DNA of 64,000 nt, taken from assembly GCA_019163175.1 (NCBI GenBank), contig JAFLKN010000037.1:1-64000 (forward strand), in the 5' to 3' direction. The position numbers and the translations under genes were made by a program. Of this stretch, positions 34,005-46,211 are shown one piece after another. Numbering within the stretch: position 1 is the stretch's first letter; every line of letters begins with the position of its first letter. Origin of the DNA: Prolixibacteraceae bacterium. Lineage in GTDB: Bacteria > Bacteroidota > Bacteroidia > Bacteroidales > Prolixibacteraceae. The notes beneath the pieces are model-generated. The model ran no database searches and was not told where the DNA came from. It was given only the letters and a program-made list of their open reading frames with translations.

Positions 34005-34031
34005 TGGAGTTAATCCTGATAGTATCATGTT
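33992..34031 (-). terminator. Terminator after the rhomboid pair
   Basis: On the minus strand AACATGAT (34031-34024) pairs with ATCATGTT (34005-33998) across an 18-nt loop and runs into six or seven Ts. It overlaps the end of the convergent YihY gene. The loop is long, so confidence is moderate. Confidence 0.5.
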
Positions 34032-34902
34032 ATTCCTTACCCATCCGGAATAAAATTTCCTTTTCTTCCTTCGAGAGCGAGTCGTAGCCCGATTTACTGA
34101 TTTTATCCAAAATGCCGTTCATCCGGGTTTTATCCTGATTTTTCATCCGGTTGTATTCAATATCGTCAACAGGTTTGCGATACGAAATTTTAACTTTGGG
34201 TTTTGGCGCCATACTTTTTTTAATACCAGTAAAAAGCTTCGTAATCCATTTACCCAAATCTACACCTCGACGAAGCTGAAGCACGTATATCATGCCCCAG
34301 AATGCGCCCCCGAGGTGTGCAAGGTTACCACCGGCATTGGTCGATGAAATACCGATAACATACATAAATACTGAAAAGAGAGCAATGTATTTCATTTTCA
34401 CCGGACCAATGAACATCAGTTGCAGCGTGTGATTCGGCGCGTACACAGCCAAAGCTGTAACTATTGCAATTACTGATGCCGAAGCTCCTAAAAGTCTTGA
34501 ATCGACAACAATTTCAGAAAAAACCGGAAACGAATTGTACCCGGCCACATAAAATAAACCACCGGCAATTCCGCCAAGCAAATAAATGGCAACTAATTTA
34601 CCCTGATCAAAATAACCAAGAAAAATCTGCCCCATCCAATACAGCCAAAGCAGGTTAAACAAGATATGAAGAAAGTCGAAATGCAGAAACATGTAGGTCA
34701 AAAGTGTCCATGGACGACTGGCAAGCAATCCAAAATCGGCAGGGAGGGCCAACCAATCCAGAAACGGAAACTGTGTACCCGAAAGAAAATAAAAAACATT
34801 CACAATCCTGACCAGAAGGAAAATGCCCAGATTAATGTAGATTAGTCTGGTTAAAGCCGATCCTTCTCTAAATGATTCTTTGATTTCGTCAAGCAGATTC
34901 AT
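34030..34902 (-). CDS. Rhomboid intramembrane serine protease, C-terminally extended
   Basis: The 290-aa protein has six predicted helices in the first ~205 residues, with HFDFLHILFNLLWLYWMG (conserved His/Asn region), the catalytic Ser in LGASASVIAI and the catalytic His in NLAHLGGAFWG. A Lys-rich cytoplasmic tail of about 80 residues follows. Rhomboids cleave membrane proteins within the lipid bilayer. It lies 2 nt after a second rhomboid gene, so the pair is cotranscribed. Substrates are unknown. The Ser/His dyad suggests it is active. Confidence 0.92.
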   Translation of the reverse strand: MNLLDEIKESFREGSALTRLIYINLGIFLLVRIVNVFYFLSGTQFPFLDWLALPADFGLLASRPWTLLTYMFLHFDFLHILFNLLWLYWMGQIFLGYFDQGKLVAIYLLGGIAGGLFYVAGYNSFPVFSEIVVDSRLLGASASVIAIVTALAVYAPNHTLQLMFIGPVKMKYIALFSVFMYVIGISSTNAGGNLAHLGGAFWGMIYVLQLRRGVDLGKWITKLFTGIKKSMAPKPKVKISYRKPVDDIEYNRMKNQDKTRMNGILDKISKSGYDSLSKEEKEILFRMGKE

Positions 34903-34904
34903 GC

Positions 34905-35645
34905 CTAGTAAAAATGGGTAGTGTGTTTATTCCAATATCTGATCATAAAAAACCCGAAAAGCATTCCACCTAAATGTGCGAAATGGGCAATGTTACTTCC
35001 GGTATTGGCAATTCCGCTAAAAAGCTCAATGGCACCGTAACCCATCACAAAATATTTGGCTTTAATCGGAATTGGTGGAAATAACAACATCAACTCTGTG
35101 TTGGGAAATAACATTCCAAATCCGAGCAAGATACCAAAAACAGCGCCGGAAGCGCCGACTGTTGGCATGTTTAAAATATTATTGAGTTTGAATGCCTGTG
35201 GATCGGTAAAGTTCTTTCCCTGATTGAATATTTCGGTTCCCTGGCTCACTACCATCTGAACGGTTTCGGGTAACATTTTGCTGGCCAGATAATGAAATTC
35301 AATGAAATTCACCAAAGTGTGCAAGGCCGCCGCGCCTAATCCGGTAACAAAATAGTAGATAAAAAACCGTTTTGGTCCCCAAACGCTTTCCAATACCCGG
35401 CCAAACATCCATAGCGCAAACATATTAAAGACAAGATGCCATATGTCGCCATGCATAAACAGATGCGTAACAAGCTGGAATGGCCTGAAATCGGGCGATT
35501 CAAAATAATGCAATCCAAGAATTTTGTACAAATCAACTCCCCTCATGCCCAGAACATAAGTAATAAATAACATGATGGCATTGATGATAATCAGGTTTTT
35601 AACAACCGGAGGAATGGTATTGATGCTGGGTCTGAAATTATTCAT
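34905..35645 (-). CDS. Rhomboid intramembrane serine protease
   Basis: This 246-aa rhomboid has the loop segment HLFMHGDIWHLVFNMFALWMFG, the catalytic Ser in VGASGAVFGILLGF and the catalytic His in IAHFAHLGGMLFG. An insertion of about 45 residues (roughly 115-160, extracytoplasmic) lies between the second and third conserved blocks. It is the first gene of a two-rhomboid operon. An AATCTTTG sequence at 35687-35680 is a possible but imperfect -7 box. Substrates unknown. Confidence 0.94.
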   Translation of the reverse strand: MNNFRPSINTIPPVVKNLIIINAIMLFITYVLGMRGVDLYKILGLHYFESPDFRPFQLVTHLFMHGDIWHLVFNMFALWMFGRVLESVWGPKRFFIYYFVTGLGAAALHTLVNFIEFHYLASKMLPETVQMVVSQGTEIFNQGKNFTDPQAFKLNNILNMPTVGASGAVFGILLGFGMLFPNTELMLLFPPIPIKAKYFVMGYGAIELFSGIANTGSNIAHFAHLGGMLFGFFMIRYWNKHTTHFY

Positions 35646-39250: not shown

Positions 39251-39399
39251 AACAAAATCTGATTGGGTGCCCATGCCATGTTGCTTGTTGATGAACTGAT
39301 TAAAGTACGAATGGTTGAAAGTGGATAAATCTTCAAGTGAATACCATCAATTCAGCTAAAAGTTGTTGGAATTCTATGTTCGAAAAGGAATCTGGTATT

Positions 39400-39433
39400 A
39401 CTAAAAATAGAAAGCGGGCCTCTGCCCGCTTTC
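39400..39433 (-). terminator. Terminator of the dcw-yqeY transcript
   Basis: Arms 39410-39419 and 39424-39433 form a perfect 10-bp stem (GAAAGCGGGC with GCCCGCTTTC) with a 4-nt loop, followed on the minus strand by TATTTTTAG. It probably ends the whole mraZ-to-yqeY transcript. Confidence 0.8.
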
Positions 39434-39488
39434 CTTTTTCCACCCCAAATGCACAAAACTTGAGATTTCAAGTCCCGACATTCTATCT

Positions 39489-39938
39489 TTAGCTTAATAG
39501 CGCTTTCACTTTATCCGAGATATCCTTTCCATCAGCCAGACCAGCCAGCTTTTTGGAAGCTAATCCCATTACTTTTCCCATTTCTTTGATGCTTGTTGCA
39601 CCAACTTCAGCAATAATCGACTGAATTGCTTCAGTCAATTCTGGATCCGATAATTTTTGCGGAAGGTACGATTCAAAAACCTTTACCTGAAAAATTTCCT
39701 GCTGATATAAATCAATTCGACCCTGTTCTTTGTAAATAGTTGCCGAATCAGTTCCTTGCTTTGCTAATTTCTGAATGATTTTCAAACTTTCCTGATCGCT
39801 TAATTCGCCGGTTGAACCAGCAGCCGATTTAGCTTCAATCATTACTTTCTTAATTCCGCGTAAAGCTTCAAGTTTTTCTTTTTCTCTGGCTTTCATCGCT
39901 TCCAAAATGTCGGCACTAATCTGATCAAATAAACTCAT
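39489..39938 (-). CDS. GatB/YqeY domain protein
   Basis: This 149-aa protein is the stand-alone form of the YqeY domain that also ends GatB of the amidotransferase complex, where it binds tRNA. The family block EKLEALRGIKKVMIEAK and the end IKEMGKVMGLASKKLAGLADGKDISDKVKALL are clear. Function alone is not established. It lies 10 nt after the second ftsZ, the position usual for Bacteroidota, and closes the dcw operon. Confidence 0.93.
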   Translation of the reverse strand: MSLFDQISADILEAMKAREKEKLEALRGIKKVMIEAKSAAGSTGELSDQESLKIIQKLAKQGTDSATIYKEQGRIDLYQQEIFQVKVFESYLPQKLSDPELTEAIQSIIAEVGATSIKEMGKVMGLASKKLAGLADGKDISDKVKALLS

Positions 39939-39948
39939 TATTTAGAAA

Positions 39949-41367
39949 TTAATCAACGTTATCGTGCAAATACGAATTATTATCGCGTAAAATTACATTA
40001 TTATTTTCATCCGGTGAAATGGAAAAACGAGAAAATTTCTCATCTACTTTTTTTTTAAAGCCAAAGAAATTCGAATTCTTCCTGCGGTAGGCAGGAATAT
40101 TCTCCAATTCATTCACAGTTTCTTCCGAAGTTTGAGCAAAATCAACAGGTTCAGTTTCTTCAGCACCTTTATTTTTTTTGGAGTGATTACTTCCATAAAG
40201 CTCTTCAAATTCATCGTATCCGGCTGGATTCACCTCGAATTCGAAAGTTTTCTGTTTGGCAGTCTTCGAACCATACAATTCTGTTTCAATTGATGTTTTT
40301 TCAGTTTTTGTAAACGGTGTGCCATGAGGAGCATCATCCTGAAGAGTATGGTACGTTTTTTCCTGATTTTGATTGATCACCATTTCAGGTATACTGCTTG
40401 TGCTAAATCCGGTAGCAATTATGGTAACAGAAATTTTATCGCCTAAAGTCTCGTCAACACCATTTCCCCAAATTAGGTCAGCAGAATTTCCTGCCTTTTC
40501 CTGAACGTAATCGGTAATTTCACCAATTTCATCCATCGTAATTTCTTCAATTCCTGAGGTGATATTCAAAAGAATATTGCGGGCGCCCATAATATCGTTG
40601 TTGTTGAGCAAAGGAGAATTTAAGGCCTGTTCAACTGCAACTACTGCACGATTTACTCCCGAAGCAATACCTGTTCCCATTAGAGCAACGCCGCTGTTGC
40701 GCATCACTGTTTCCACATCGGCAAAATCAACATTAATATAACCTGGAACCGTAATAATCTCAGCAATTCCTTTGGCTGCTGTAGTTAAAATATTATCAGC
40801 TTTGGCAAATGCATCCGAAATCTTTGAATCACCATACATTTCGCGGATACGCTCGTTATTGATAACCAGCAGCGAATCGACGTGTGATTCCATTGCGGCA
40901 ATACCTTCAACAGCCTGTTTGATGCGGCGGCGACCTTCATTCCGGAAGGGAATAGTAACGATTCCAACCGTTAAAATTCCAAGTTCACGCGCAGCAGCAG
41001 CAATTACCGGAGCACCACCAGTACCTGTACCACCGCCCATTCCTGCAGTTATAAATACCATCTTTGTATTGTTGCGCAGTACTTTTTTGACATCTTCAAT
41101 ATTTTCGATGGCTGAATCCCTACCTGTTTCCGGTTTATTACCAGCTCCACGACCCTCGGTTAACGAAGAACCCAATTGAACCTTAAAAGGTACCGGGCTA
41201 TTTATTAAAGCCTGAGCATCGGTGTTGCAAACCATAAAATCCACATCACGAATTCCCTGATAGTACATATGATTCACTGCATTTCCACCACCACCACCTA
41301 CACCAATTACTTTGATGATTGAACCCGAATTAACGGTTAAATCAAAATTCATAATTTCGTTTGACAT
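39949..41367 (-). CDS. ftsZ: Cell division protein FtsZ, canonical copy
   Basis: FtsZ is the tubulin-like GTPase that forms the Z ring. The 472-aa protein has the GTP-binding GGGTGTG (111-117) and the catalytic T7 loop INVDFADV (Asn212, Asp214, Asp217). A variable linker begins at about 325. It has a C-terminal peptide of the FtsA-binding type, ENIPAYRRKN (about 422-431), followed by a 41-residue basic extension ending DNNSYLHDNVD, as in other Bacteroidales FtsZ. It is directly downstream of a second ftsZ (21-nt gap) and upstream of yqeY, so I take this as the ancestral copy. Confidence 0.97.
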   Translation of the reverse strand: MSNEIMNFDLTVNSGSIIKVIGVGGGGGNAVNHMYYQGIRDVDFMVCNTDAQALINSPVPFKVQLGSSLTEGRGAGNKPETGRDSAIENIEDVKKVLRNNTKMVFITAGMGGGTGTGGAPVIAAAARELGILTVGIVTIPFRNEGRRRIKQAVEGIAAMESHVDSLLVINNERIREMYGDSKISDAFAKADNILTTAAKGIAEIITVPGYINVDFADVETVMRNSGVALMGTGIASGVNRAVVAVEQALNSPLLNNNDIMGARNILLNITSGIEEITMDEIGEITDYVQEKAGNSADLIWGNGVDETLGDKISVTIIATGFSTSSIPEMVINQNQEKTYHTLQDDAPHGTPFTKTEKTSIETELYGSKTAKQKTFEFEVNPAGYDEFEELYGSNHSKKNKGAEETEPVDFAQTSEETVNELENIPAYRRKNSNFFGFKKKVDEKFSRFSISPDENNNVILRDNNSYLHDNVD

Positions 41368-41388
41368 GAGTATATGTTTTTCGTGTTA

Positions 41389-42699
41389 TTAATCAATTTT
41401 GTTGTTTTCATCAATTTGTTCAGACAGGCTTGAATCTTTCTCTTCAAACAATTTGGTAAACTGCCTTACGAACCAGCTATCAACATTTGCATTTTCAGGA
41501 TTTGCTTTTGCTGCCTGTTTTTTTGCCACCTTCTTTTGTGCTTTTGATTGAGAACCGATTGTATGAGATTCTATGACAGGCTTTTTAAACGATTCATGTT
41601 TCGTTTTCAACGGTTCTGTCACATTCAGTGGCTCATCATCATCAAGATTAATATCAAAGTCTAATCCTATATTATCCTGATAATCAAGTTGCACAACTTC
41701 TGAAGGAGCCTGGAACAAACGGTTCGGATTTACGTCAAACCCAGTTGCAATAATGGTCACGCTAATCTGATTTCCGAGTTTAGGGTCGCAGCCATTTCCC
41801 CATATAATTGTAGCATCCTGCCCAGCTTCATCCTGCAAAAAGTCAATAATTTCGCCAATCTCGCCCATGGTTATTTCTTCAGTTCCTGAAATAATATTGA
41901 GCAAAATGTCTTTCGTCCCATGAATGCTGCTGCTATCGAGCAGTGGAGATTCCAATGCCTGGGTAACAGCTTTCATGGCACGGTCGGGGCCATCAGCATA
42001 TCCGGTACCCATAATAAAAACTTTGCTACCAGACATAACCGTACTAACGTCAGCAAAGTCGATGTTGATATTACCATGAAGTGTGATAATTTCGGCAACT
42101 CCCTTTACAGCGGTAGTAATAATATTGTCAGCCTTTTTAAAGGCCTTGGAGGCCGGCAGATTTCCGTATATTTTATGCAATTTTTCGTTGCTGATCACAA
42201 GCATACTGTCCACGTGCTCTTTCAGTTTTTCAACTCCTTCGAGCGCCTGATCGAATCTTCGCTTTCCTTCAGATTGTGATGGAATAGTTACTACCGCAAT
42301 GGTAAGTATCTCCAGTTCGCGAGCCAAACGGGCAATAACAGGAGCAGCGCCAGTTCCGGTTCCACCTCCCATTCCGGCCGTGATAAATACCATTTTGGTT
42401 GTTCCTTCGAGTACATTGCGGATGTCATCCAGATTTTCAATGGCGGCTTGTTCGCCTTGTTCCGGCATGTTTCCGGCACCCCTGCCCTCAGTAAGAGTTA
42501 CACCCAACTGAATCCGGGTAGGCACCGGGTTGTTTTGCATCGCCTGTGCATCGGTATTACAAACCATAAAATTTACACCTTCAATGCCTTCTTCAAACAT
42601 GTTTTTGACAGCATTGCACCCACCTCCGCCAACACCAATAACCTTGATAATGGAAGAGTCTGCGTGTTCTAATCCGAAGTTAAGTATTTCATCGATCAT
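41389..42699 (-). CDS. ftsZ: Second FtsZ paralogue
   Basis: This 436-aa FtsZ aligns without gaps to the downstream copy through residue 321, with 203 identical positions by hand count. It keeps GGGTGTG (111-117) and the T7 residues Asn212, Asp214 and Asp217, so it should bind and hydrolyse GTP. Differences: GGGGCNAV rather than GGGGGNAV in the first loop, an acidic then Lys/Ala-rich linker, and no IPAY-type C-terminal peptide. Instead it ends with a candidate amphipathic helix, DSWFVRQFTKLFEEK (about 407-421), and an acidic tail. It lies 76 nt after ftsA. No frameshift or decay is visible. Possible roles are a co-polymer or a regulator of the main FtsZ. Confidence 0.95.
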   Translation of the reverse strand: MIDEILNFGLEHADSSIIKVIGVGGGGCNAVKNMFEEGIEGVNFMVCNTDAQAMQNNPVPTRIQLGVTLTEGRGAGNMPEQGEQAAIENLDDIRNVLEGTTKMVFITAGMGGGTGTGAAPVIARLARELEILTIAVVTIPSQSEGKRRFDQALEGVEKLKEHVDSMLVISNEKLHKIYGNLPASKAFKKADNIITTAVKGVAEIITLHGNINIDFADVSTVMSGSKVFIMGTGYADGPDRAMKAVTQALESPLLDSSSIHGTKDILLNIISGTEEITMGEIGEIIDFLQDEAGQDATIIWGNGCDPKLGNQISVTIIATGFDVNPNRLFQAPSEVVQLDYQDNIGLDFDINLDDDEPLNVTEPLKTKHESFKKPVIESHTIGSQSKAQKKVAKKQAAKANPENANVDSWFVRQFTKLFEEKDSSLSEQIDENNKID

Positions 42700-42775
42700 A
42701 AGGCAGCAACGATTATATTTTGAATTAAGATCTTCAATTTACCCAAGAACTGAATGATTTAAACCAGGAAGATTA

Positions 42776-44077
42776 CTAAAATTTACCAGATTCACTCATT
42801 TCAGTATCGGCTGTATTTTCATCAAAAAAACTTATAACTGTTTGTACAATTTTCGTTTGAACTATCGATATAATGCCAGGTCCGGTTGGTTCTGGTCTAG
42901 TTTTTTTCTTCCGCTGTTTACCGTTAATCAGATTTCCTTCTAATGCAGCCATATTCAGAAGGCCCAACACCGTAGAAAACCTGGGATCGTAAACTTCCTT
43001 TCGCGGAACGAAGTTGTTCAGATTGGGTTTTCCAATCCTTACATCATAGCCTGTGTGGAACTTAATGAGCTGCGAAAGATTTGGCAACAGCGATGTACCT
43101 CCGGTAATTACAATTCCGGCGCCCAATTTATCGGCATAACCCGATTTGCGTATCTGGTAAAAAAAGTGAACCACAATCTCTTCCATTCGGGCCTGAATGA
43201 TATGAGCCAAACTCTTAAACGACATTTGTTTGGGCTCCCAACCGTTACGCTGAATGGTTACAACCTTATTTTCAGGAGCAAAATCAGCAATAGCCTGACC
43301 GAACTGAAGTTTCATGGATTCAGCATCTTTGGCTGTAATGGAACATCCTTCTTTGATGTCTTTGGTAATTACATTTCCTCCGAACGGAACCATCGAAGTG
43401 AAGCATAAAACACCATCATAGAAAATAGAAATCTTAGTTGTTCCACCGCCAATATCGACCAATGCCACACCGGCTTCTTTCTCATCCTGAAGCAAGACGA
43501 CTTCAGAAGAAGCTATTGGATCAAGAATAGCTTTGCGCACCTGAATAGCCCCGCCTTCGAAACACTTCGAGATGTTGCGTTGATATGAATCAGGTGCCAC
43601 GTGTATTTTATAAGTGCCTTCCATTTTCTTGCCGACTGAACCAACCACCCCATTGGGAACAGGTTCTCCATCGATGGTATAGGACTCGTGGTTGATGTGA
43701 TAAATGAACATTCCTTCGTCGAGCCTAACATTTTTTGCCTGCTCCATCATCTGGGCTACCTCATATTCAGTTACAGGATCGTTACCGAGATTCTTTTGCT
43801 GCTTCGAAGTCAGGGTTATCAGGTGTTGTCCGGAAATATTCACGAACACATCGGAAATCTCGGTGCCACAATCCCGTTCAGCCTGCCCCACAGCATCACT
43901 GATGGCTGCAAACGTCTCTTCCACATTCACCACCACTCCCCGATTTACTCCTCGCGACGCACTATGTCCAAGTCCAACAATCTGGATTTTACCCTCTTCA
44001 TTCTTTTTTCCGGCAAGGGCTACGATCTTTGTAGACCCAATGTCAACTGCTGCAAAAATTTTCTCGTTCTTGTCCAT
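42776..44077 (-). CDS. ftsA: Cell division protein FtsA
   Basis: FtsA is the actin-like membrane tether of the Z ring. The 433-aa protein has the phosphate-1 motif AAVDIGSTKIVAL, phosphate-2 VALVDIGGGTTKISIF, and the adenosine motif GAGIVITGGTSLLPNL. The 1C subdomain is at about 85-165. A C-terminal amphipathic membrane-targeting helix (SIVQTKIVQTVISFF) is followed by an unusual acidic end, DENTADTEMSESGKF. It follows ftsQ by 3 nt and precedes both ftsZ genes. With two FtsZ tails available, only the downstream copy has the usual FtsA-binding peptide. Confidence 0.97.
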   Translation of the reverse strand: MDKNEKIFAAVDIGSTKIVALAGKKNEEGKIQIVGLGHSASRGVNRGVVVNVEETFAAISDAVGQAERDCGTEISDVFVNISGQHLITLTSKQQKNLGNDPVTEYEVAQMMEQAKNVRLDEGMFIYHINHESYTIDGEPVPNGVVGSVGKKMEGTYKIHVAPDSYQRNISKCFEGGAIQVRKAILDPIASSEVVLLQDEKEAGVALVDIGGGTTKISIFYDGVLCFTSMVPFGGNVITKDIKEGCSITAKDAESMKLQFGQAIADFAPENKVVTIQRNGWEPKQMSFKSLAHIIQARMEEIVVHFFYQIRKSGYADKLGAGIVITGGTSLLPNLSQLIKFHTGYDVRIGKPNLNNFVPRKEVYDPRFSTVLGLLNMAALEGNLINGKQRKKKTRPEPTGPGIISIVQTKIVQTVISFFDENTADTEMSESGKF

Positions 44078-44080
44078 AAT

Positions 44081-44836
44081 CTACTTTTTTGTACAAACAA
44101 CCTGGTTCCGATATTTCACACTAATGGTCTTATACCTGTTCCATCCCATATTTTTAAATCCCTGCTGGTATACGGCTCTCAAATTCCTAAACTTTAATTC
44201 ATATTCATCCGGGGCTCCAAATTCTATAAGGCAATCGCCAACTTGCGGCACCATCATCAATTCCCCATTTGCCAAAATAAAAATCTGTTCAATCTGCGCT
44301 CGCCAAAATTCATCCTTATTAATAAAATCGGCCATTTTCAAAACGCCCTTCTTAATTATCTCATCCGGAATCGTTCCAGTAGCCATCAAAATGCGTTCAA
44401 TGTATTTGGGCGATGTCGGAATAATTATTCCATCCTTATCCAAATAATAATCTTCAGTCGAGTTTTTAATCCTGACTACTGGAGTGCGCTGATCGACACT
44501 AATAATCAGCTTTCCAGTAAACGACATTCCTTTCGATTCAACTTTCCTGAATATTTCAACATTATTCAATGTAGTAAACGAACTTAATTTTGCTTCTAGC
44601 TTATTGATATTAATTGCCGAAAGTTTGTGCCCGATAATAGGTTCTCCCGACTTTTCGATCATACCGGCAATTTCAGCTTCGTCCATGAAACGCGGTGAGT
44701 TGGGATTTATATTCACCTCAACTGACTGGCACCTCACGGCAATCCACTGGCTGTACGCAAAATAAACGGTGAATCCGATTGCCCCAACCAGACAAATCCA
44801 TGCTAATATGACCAATATCTTTTTAACGATCTTCAT
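44081..44836 (-). CDS. ftsQ: Cell division protein FtsQ
   Basis: The 251-aa bitopic membrane protein has a short cytoplasmic N-terminus, one transmembrane helix (about 7-29) and a periplasmic region. The POTRA-like part is VEVNINPNSPRFMDEAEIAGMIEK, and the FtsQ beta domain has VDQRTPVVRIKNSTEDYYLDKDGIIIP, the best-conserved FtsQ segment. FtsQ recruits FtsL/FtsB and FtsW/FtsI to the division site. Its start overlaps the murC end by 14 nt, and its stop is 3 nt before ftsA. Confidence 0.9.
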   Translation of the reverse strand: MKIVKKILVILAWICLVGAIGFTVYFAYSQWIAVRCQSVEVNINPNSPRFMDEAEIAGMIEKSGEPIIGHKLSAININKLEAKLSSFTTLNNVEIFRKVESKGMSFTGKLIISVDQRTPVVRIKNSTEDYYLDKDGIIIPTSPKYIERILMATGTIPDEIIKKGVLKMADFINKDEFWRAQIEQIFILANGELMMVPQVGDCLIEFGAPDEYELKFRNLRAVYQQGFKNMGWNRYKTISVKYRNQVVCTKK

Positions 44837-46211
44837 ACTTCAATAATTGCTCTTTTACCGGCTCAACCAGGTTATCGATATCGCCAGCTCCCATCATGAT
44901 CACTATGCCAGGTTTAAATGCACGAGCCAGTGCAGGCAATTCAGCTCTTGTACAAATTATCTTGTTTTTATTTTTTATCTGATTAAAAATTAATTCGGAG
45001 CTAACACCTTCAATCGGCAGCTCGCGTGCCGGATAAATATTGAGCAGTACGATTTGATCGAGCAAATCGAGACTGGCTGCAAAGTCGGTGGCAAAATCTT
45101 TGGTTCGGCTGTAAAGATGCGGCTGAAATACACCAGTCAATGTCCGGTGTCTGTAAATATCGCGAACCGACTGAATCGTTGCACGCAGTTCTGCCGGATG
45201 ATGTGCATAATCATCAATCAACACAAATGATTCGTTATTCAGGTGAATGTCGAACCTCCGTTTTACTCCTGAATACGTAGCAAGCGCTTCTCGTATTGCC
45301 TCAGTTGAAGCCCCTGCTAAAATGGCCAGCGCCACTGCAGCAACAGAGTTCTCCACATTCAACAGACCGGGATAATTCAGCACCAATTTCTCTATTCTAA
45401 ATTCGGGTGTTTTCAGATCAAACTGATAATAGCCATCTTTCAACTCGATATTTTCGGCACAAAAATCAGCTGTTTCAGTAATCGAATACGAATACAGCTT
45501 GTACTTTGATGAAAGATCATGCCCAATTGGAAGTCCTTTTTTTAAAACCAGCGAACCACCTTCTTTAATATTCCCGGCAAACAGGCGGAAGCTTTCAATC
45601 ACCTTTTCGTGCGATCCGTAAATGTCCAAATGATCAGCATCCATGGAGGTGATAACGGCCAATTCAGGGAGAAGATGAAGGAACGAACGGTCGAACTCGT
45701 CGGCTTCAGCAACAATCCACTCGCTGCTTGTGGAATCGAGTAATAAATTGGTTTGGTAATTTTTCGATATGCCTCCCAAAAAAGCGGAGCAACCTAATGT
45801 TGAAGTTTTCAAAATGTGTGCAGTCATGGTCGAAACAGATGTTTTCCCATGTGTTCCGGCTACAGCAATTGTACGACGACTGTTGCAAATAATTCCCAGA
45901 ACCTCGGCCCGTTTATGAATGCTGAATCCGCGATCGATGAGGGCATTTAATTCGGCATGTGTTACCGGGACAGCAGGAGTGTACACAATAAGCGAATTAG
46001 ATACGTCAAGATTGGCAGGCAATAGCGATGGATTATCATCGTAGTGCACCACAATACCTTCGGTTTCAAGCTGTGCTGTTAACTCAGTAGCGGTTCGGTC
46101 GTAACCCGAAACAGTGATGCCCTGACTCGCAAAATAACGTGCCAAAGCGCTCATTCCAATTCCCCCAATACCAAGGAAATACACTTGCTTTATGTCGGTA
46201 AATTTCAGCAT
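44823..46211 (-). CDS. murC: UDP-N-acetylmuramate--L-alanine ligase
   Basis: MurC adds L-Ala to UDP-MurNAc using ATP, the first step of the peptidoglycan stem peptide. The 462-aa protein has the N-terminal dinucleotide motif FLGIGGIGMSALA, the ATP loop AVAGTHGKTSVSTM, the DEFDRSFLHL and TSMDADHLDIYG blocks, and DDYAHHPAELRATI in the C-terminal domain. It lies one base after murG and overlaps ftsQ. Confidence 0.98.
   Translation of the reverse strand: MLKFTDIKQVYFLGIGGIGMSALARYFASQGITVSGYDRTATELTAQLETEGIVVHYDDNPSLLPANLDVSNSLIVYTPAVPVTHAELNALIDRGFSIHKRAEVLGIICNSRRTIAVAGTHGKTSVSTMTAHILKTSTLGCSAFLGGISKNYQTNLLLDSTSSEWIVAEADEFDRSFLHLLPELAVITSMDADHLDIYGSHEKVIESFRLFAGNIKEGGSLVLKKGLPIGHDLSSKYKLYSYSITETADFCAENIELKDGYYQFDLKTPEFRIEKLVLNYPGLLNVENSVAAVALAILAGASTEAIREALATYSGVKRRFDIHLNNESFVLIDDYAHHPAELRATIQSVRDIYRHRTLTGVFQPHLYSRTKDFATDFAASLDLLDQIVLLNIYPARELPIEGVSSELIFNQIKNKNKIICTRAELPALARAFKPGIVIMMGAGDIDNLVEPVKEQLLKYEDR

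Follow-up and report, generated by a model that had tools for sequence, protein, structure and literature searches.

The window analysed here, the first 64,000 nucleotides of contig JAFLKN010000037.1 (assembly GCA_019163175.1) from a member of the Prolixibacteraceae, carries two intact ftsZ genes in tandem in its dcw (division and cell wall) cluster. We refer to the upstream gene as ZA and to the downstream gene as ZB; on the minus strand, the order is ftsQ-position gene, ftsA, ZA, ZB and yqeY. ZB fits the description of a canonical FtsZ with a C-terminal docking peptide and ZA does not: it lacks that peptide, and it ends in a short segment that resembles the tail of FtsA. From this architecture, ZA is probably a self-tethering FtsZ that sits beside an FtsA-tethered partner, ZB, such that two GTPases would divide membrane attachment between them. 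The features on which this reading draws are as follows.

41389..42699, minus strand: ZA, upstream FtsZ paralogue, 436 residues (open reading frame, BLASTP, NCBIfam ftsZ equivalog 363.6 bits)
42349..42369, minus strand: GTP-binding T4 loop of ZA, GGGTGTG, residues 111-117 (motif)
41437..41481, minus strand: C-terminal amphipathic FtsA-like segment of ZA, residues 407-421, DSWFVRQFTKLFEEK (alignment, FtsA-tail profile)
39949..41367, minus strand: ZB, downstream FtsZ with canonical C-terminus, 472 residues (open reading frame, BLASTP, Pfam, NCBIfam ftsZ equivalog 360.7 bits)
40078..40107, minus strand: conserved docking peptide of ZB, LENIPAYRRK, residues 421-430 (alignment; the docking role is presumed from FtsZ of model bacteria)
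39952..39969, minus strand: terminal LHDNVD of ZB, residues 467-472 (sequence; single-copy FtsZ proteins of the order commonly end so)

An initial annotation of the locus had described two adjacent full-length ftsZ genes that align without gaps over residues 1-321, with 203 identities counted by hand. BLASTP returns exactly that count (203/321 identities, 254/321 positives, 0 gaps; ~63% identity). The genes are separated by 21 bp. Both products pass the NCBIfam ftsZ equivalog cut-off of 295.2 bits, and both contain the Pfam Tubulin (GTPase) and FtsZ_C domains, above curated cut-offs. They are the only matches to PF00091 in the window's genome at E <= 0.001; no third was found. Both copies in the window also retain the GTP-loop and T7 motifs, as the annotation had stated, and the same is true of most of their relatives. 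Among ZA proteins, the T4 motif GGGTGTG and the T7 motif NxDFxD are each present in 57/57; among ZB proteins, T7 is present in 51/51 and T4 in 47/51. In what follows, the window's own family, read as Prolixibacteraceae, is termed f1, and other families are given similar codes; the order to which the window and the sampled families belong we take to be the Bacteroidales of GTDB. The four ZB proteins without the T4 motif all come from f23, where GMGKGTGT replaces GMGGGTGT in the GTP loop of the downstream, canonical-tailed copies (L094, L096, L098 and L099; 4/5 rows).

The two proteins part company at their C-termini. The LHDNVD end is present in ZB and not in ZA, and only ZB has the docking peptide, which bears out the annotation's claim that the canonical tail belongs to the downstream copy alone. 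Within the peptide, residues P425, A426 and R429 of ZB are invariant in 27 aligned family members. A regular expression of the xPAYxRR type, applied near the C-terminus, finds the peptide in 50/51 ZB proteins and 34/37 single-copy FtsZ proteins, and matches 5/57 ZA proteins, the latter matches lying 52-86 residues before the end, in surroundings unlike those of the peptide (f16 is left out of these counts). Inspected by eye, the same division, upstream copy without the peptide and downstream copy with it, recurs in f1, f23, f100, f32, f67, f81 and f16; the exception is an f1 downstream copy (L092) that lacks it.

What ZA has at its end is distinctive. After a variable linker, the consensus reads D-x-W-F-x-R-Q-F-x-K-[FL]-F-E-D, in which W409 and F418 are invariant in 27/27 aligned family members and position 414 is F in 25/27. 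We took 35 FtsA ends, each from a locus whose dcw cluster contains only one ftsZ, built a profile from them, and scored tails against it with a threshold of 5 bits. The threshold is reached by 49/57 ZA tails, 2/51 ZB tails, 0/37 tails of single FtsZ proteins and 9/285 shuffled ZA tails; counted per genus, the figures are 23/28 for ZA, 0/23 for ZB and 0/31 for single FtsZ. As a control, 41/55 FtsA proteins outside the training set reach it too, and 61/75 of all FtsA do (20 of these having been used to build the profile). A second profile, made from the 54 FtsA ends of tandem loci, behaves similarly at the same threshold (ZA 38/57, ZB 1/51, single 2/37). Recognition by the FtsA-tail profile was our measure of an FtsA-type membrane-targeting sequence, and by that measure the ZA tail would count as one. 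Such ends, at or above 5 bits, occur in f1, f23, f100, f32, f67 and f16, but not in f81. The median hydrophobic moment of the best 12-mer is likewise close to that of FtsA (ZA 0.61, FtsA 0.64, ZB 0.45, single 0.38). ZA seems not to be a substitute for FtsA, because most FtsA proteins of tandem loci keep an FtsA-like tail themselves (40/54 at 5 bits or more).

The arrangement is characteristic of the whole family. It occurs in 37/39 genomes of f1, covering 15 genera. Two strong tandem matches are present in 35 of the 37 genomes of the own-family set (G000-G036), the exceptions being one genome with no match (G008) and one with a single match at a contig end (G014); two further f1 genomes from the order-wide sample also carry the pair. 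Adjacency was read in the loci of all 37 pair-bearing genomes, in one of which (G026) the second copy is cut by the contig end. The pair also occurs in isolates with strain names. Of 80 loci retained from named records, the closest 40 (L146-L184 and L190; E < 1e-100) carry titles that give Prolixibacteraceae, one of its genera, or a higher group alone. Two FtsZ are present in 39 of these 40, and the other (L155) ends after the first copy; with the FtsA-tail profile, 31/40 of the first-copy tails reach 5 bits. Draconibacterium orientale FH5T, Prolixibacter bellariivorans, Sunxiuqinia and Maribellus are among the pair-bearing records, and the pair lies on a complete chromosome (D. orientale FH5T; NZ_CP007451.1). 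In the next-closest locus (L185, Marinilabiliaceae, E 2e-96) there is a single FtsZ.

Beyond the family, tandem copies were found in six further families of the order. The order-wide sample comprised 392 genomes of >=90% completeness from 109 families, and strong matches stood side by side, as two or three tandem copies, in 24 genomes from seven families: f1 (7/7), f23 (6/6), f100 (5/5), f32 (3/3), f67 (1/1), f81 (1/1) and f16 (1/1). The f32 and f67 genomes have three copies each (L101, L102 and L103; L109), all full length and in tandem after ftsA. In these triplets only copy 3 has the docking peptide; of copies 1 and 2, which lack it, 6/8 reach 5 bits with the FtsA-tail profile. A nearby second copy in G207 (f87, L111) has no recognisable T4 loop and may be degenerate. 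In the remaining multi-match genomes of the sample the second matches are weak, unlinked or fragmented, and five genomes have no match. Four f78 genomes (G113, G201, G274 and G377) have a second, short PF00091 protein (open frame of 228-270 residues, 104-115 bits) on a contig other than that of the strong match. Elsewhere in the phylum, more than one PF00091 match was found in 30/296 genomes (the window's own genome excluded), and the matches are adjacent in 0/30. In f129, a family outside the window's class, many of the multi-match genomes have a second, divergent and unlinked FtsZ-like protein of ~400-425 residues (roughly 76-113 bits); four f129 genomes carry two strong, unlinked matches.

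Phylogeny separates the two copies across the family. Our tree of the globular domain has 102 rows, 97 from 151 extracted proteins and five from 30 outgroup proteins; its bootstrap is not fully settled, and the outgroup does not fall on a single side of any branch. In it, the ZA and the ZB proteins of f1 each have a clade of their own (ZA 100/94, 16 rows; ZB 97/89, 15 rows), and 13/15 genera are covered. By the approximately unbiased (AU) test, neither a single clade of all ZA (p 0.291) nor a single clade of f1 ZA and ZB together, as expected of a duplication within f1 only (p 0.268), is rejected. A test of shared derived residues was uninformative (three columns, versus 0-4 for other labellings). 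In trees of FtsA, MurC and FtsQ (the last two names resting here on gene order and on what we presume of such clusters), the tandem families, f16 left out, fall in four lineages and call for a minimum of four changes, on weak backbones. A recent transfer of the tail from the adjacent ftsA finds no support: the mean local score is 24.8 for 17 own pairs and 22.8 for 272 others. We note that an unlinked second FtsZ of 507 residues in f58 (G318:C1, L115) has an end that scores 10.2 bits with the FtsA-tail profile; tail exchange may therefore extend beyond tandem copies.

Both genes are under purifying selection, and neither looks to be decaying. We compared 21 genomes within the window's genus (210 pairs), using the ratio of nonsynonymous to synonymous substitution rates (dN/dS). 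For the protein cores, dN/dS is 0.047 for ZA (199/210 pairs usable), 0.029 for ZB (199), 0.092 for FtsA (166) and 0.074 for YqeY (196), rough values since dS is near saturation.

Several observations weigh against ZA as a self-tethering partner. The reverse search is weaker: a profile of ZA tails scores 3 bits or more on 13/35 FtsA ends from one-ftsZ loci, and on 13/175 shuffles. The window's own FtsA end reaches only 2.3 bits with the FtsA-tail profile, which therefore describes the group and not each member. Five of the 28 genus-level ZA rows fall below 5 bits, including those of f81 (1.9) and f67 copy 2 (-0.3), two proteins that lack the docking peptide and yet are not FtsA-like by score. 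When hydrophobic moments are compared with those of each tail's own shuffles, only 23/57 ZA tails stand out at p < 0.05, although FtsA does little better (39/75). ZA evolves faster than ZB (core dN 0.080 versus 0.047), and in one f1 genome (G034; L091, 5950-7086) it is shortened to 378 residues and sits on a long branch (1.45), its terminal segment still scoring 8.3 bits. Co-transcription, too, faces contrary signs in a promoter-like site (9 of 12) just 5' of ZB (41396-41369) and a second at the start of ZA (42724-42695); promoter-like and terminator-like sites in 39300-44900 are no commoner than in shuffles. And finally, the short W/F segment of ZA could bind protein instead of lipid.

This last point can be developed into the strongest alternative: the tail is a docking peptide for a protein, such as FtsA or another divisome factor, and ZA regulates the ZB filament without direct contact with lipid. 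FtsZ C-termini usually dock proteins, the ZA segment is short with a fixed W and F, and not every tail is strongly amphipathic. The profile that recognises it, on the other hand, is one of FtsA ends, which insert into the membrane in model bacteria, and the linker that precedes it is basic, as in FtsA (median net charge +3 in ZA, -1 in ZB and -3 in single FtsZ). We consider protein docking unlikely, if the most serious of the competing accounts. Less likely still is that ZA and ZB are interchangeable gene-dosage duplicates whose tails differ by neutral drift. Their 63% identity and common motifs would suit such duplicates, as would the looser constraint on the linker and end of ZA (dN/dS 0.214, from 83/210 usable pairs, versus 0.072 for ZB). 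Drift, however, sits poorly with a W and an F that are invariant inside an otherwise variable tail, with the recurrence of the upstream/downstream docking-peptide split in seven families, and with FtsA-like ends in all of these but f81. A recent strain-specific duplication with one copy under relaxed selection, the outcome that the initial annotation had named as fatal to its proposal, or an assembly artefact, can be dismissed as next to impossible: nothing was found in its favour, and the pair spans 15 genera and 37/39 family genomes, falls into separate ZA and ZB clades, is present in complete chromosome NZ_CP007451.1 and has low dN/dS.

If ZA is indeed self-tethering, the division of labour might run as follows. 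ZB would be an ordinary FtsZ, held at the membrane via FtsA, to which its LENIPAYRR peptide should bind. ZA, without that peptide, may have lost the ability to bind FtsA, and its basic linker and FtsA-type amphipathic end would bind the membrane directly, which would effectively make ZA a naturally occurring equivalent of the FtsZ-mts chimera built in the laboratory (mts, membrane-targeting sequence). The two proteins are probably made together with FtsA; at the division site they would assemble jointly into a ring that has one self-anchored and one FtsA-anchored component. The initial annotation had proposed a two-component ring of a filament-former and a modulator. The first half of that proposal is reasonable, because ZA and ZB form family-wide clades with low dN/dS in both; the second half is not borne out, because both copies keep the GTP and T7 motifs, and the difference that is consistent between them is the C-terminus.

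Rings of two FtsZ proteins with different anchors have precedents. In land-plant plastids, FtsZ1 and FtsZ2 co-polymerise; FtsZ2 keeps a peptide that binds the membrane protein ARC6, and FtsZ1 has lost ARC6 binding and attaches to membrane by a motif at its C-terminus, which in angiosperms is RR/KLFF (PMC11285052). To the eye, ZA ends such as RQFTKLFEE look similar to this motif. The plastid system differs in being that of an organelle with ARC6 as its anchor, whereas ours is a bacterial tandem pair with FtsA, and the motif of AtFtsZ1 is described as an amphiphilic beta-strand (PMC11285052). In Odinarchaeota, OdinFtsZ1 binds liposomes by an amphipathic helix of its own and OdinFtsZ2 binds via SepF by its C-terminal tail (PMC12583498), so that here too one paralogue binds membrane by itself and the other through an adaptor. 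The helix is N-terminal, however, the organisms are archaea, and the genes adjoin ribosomal protein and tRNA synthetase genes rather than a dcw cluster (PMC12583498). In the chimera FtsZ-YFP-mts, an amphipathic helix takes the place of the C-terminal hub, and dynamic rings form on membrane without an anchor protein or FtsA (PMC5979038); that construct is man-made, whereas ZA would be its equivalent in nature, encoded next to a full-length partner. Bacteria are stated to have a single FtsZ (PMC11285052). The few known to have two ftsZ genes resemble the present case in number, and differ in that their additional copy is located away from the dcw cluster (PMC9871819). Among the matches listed, the titles and abstracts of the open-licence literature contained no description of a tandem ftsZ pair inside the dcw cluster of Bacteroidota, though absence there is not proof, and a word search of PMC7203096 gave no match. 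In sequence architecture the pair fits dual FtsZ with split membrane attachment, of the plastid and Odinarchaeota type. Dual FtsZ with split anchoring is already known; a bacterial, in-cluster form with an FtsA-like tail would be new.

The neighbouring features of the locus are these.

42776..44077, minus strand: ftsA, 433 residues (NCBIfam ftsA equivalog 304.6 bits)
42815..42874, minus strand: C-terminal amphipathic segment of FtsA, residues 402-421, IISIVQTKIVQTVISFFDEN, a membrane-targeting region by analogy, the role being presumed from the FtsA proteins of model bacteria (FtsA-tail profile, 2.3 bits)
44081..44836, minus strand: ftsQ-position gene, 251 residues, presumed from gene order (no Pfam match to its product)
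39489..39938, minus strand: yqeY-like gene 3' of ZB (Pfam YqeY 139.8 bits)
39409..39434, minus strand: terminator-like hairpin and T-run after yqeY (consensus match only; four sites in the region versus 4.1 expected in shuffles)

The close, same-strand spacing of these genes makes co-transcription plausible, and the only minus-strand terminator-like site within 39300-44900 is the one after yqeY. The window holds another tandem pair from one family, two adjoining Rhomboid genes on the minus strand at 34030-35645 (Pfam, 77.5 and 85.1 bits).

For the order, it is about an even call that the Z ring of the whole of the Prolixibacteraceae, and of no fewer than three other lineages, consists of two or three FtsZ types whose genes stand head-to-tail within dcw, and that one or two of these types have an FtsA-like anchor of their own and would act as natural FtsZ-mts proteins, forming membrane filaments without FtsA. 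The tail would then have arisen once, with several losses, or evolved repeatedly by the same tail exchange. If true, this would give bacteria a counterpart of the two-FtsZ rings of plastids and archaea, in the form of a conserved pair within one cluster whose members are anchored in opposite ways, and would offer a direct way to ask why division machineries have repeatedly come to use distinct filaments, one anchored by itself and one through an adaptor.

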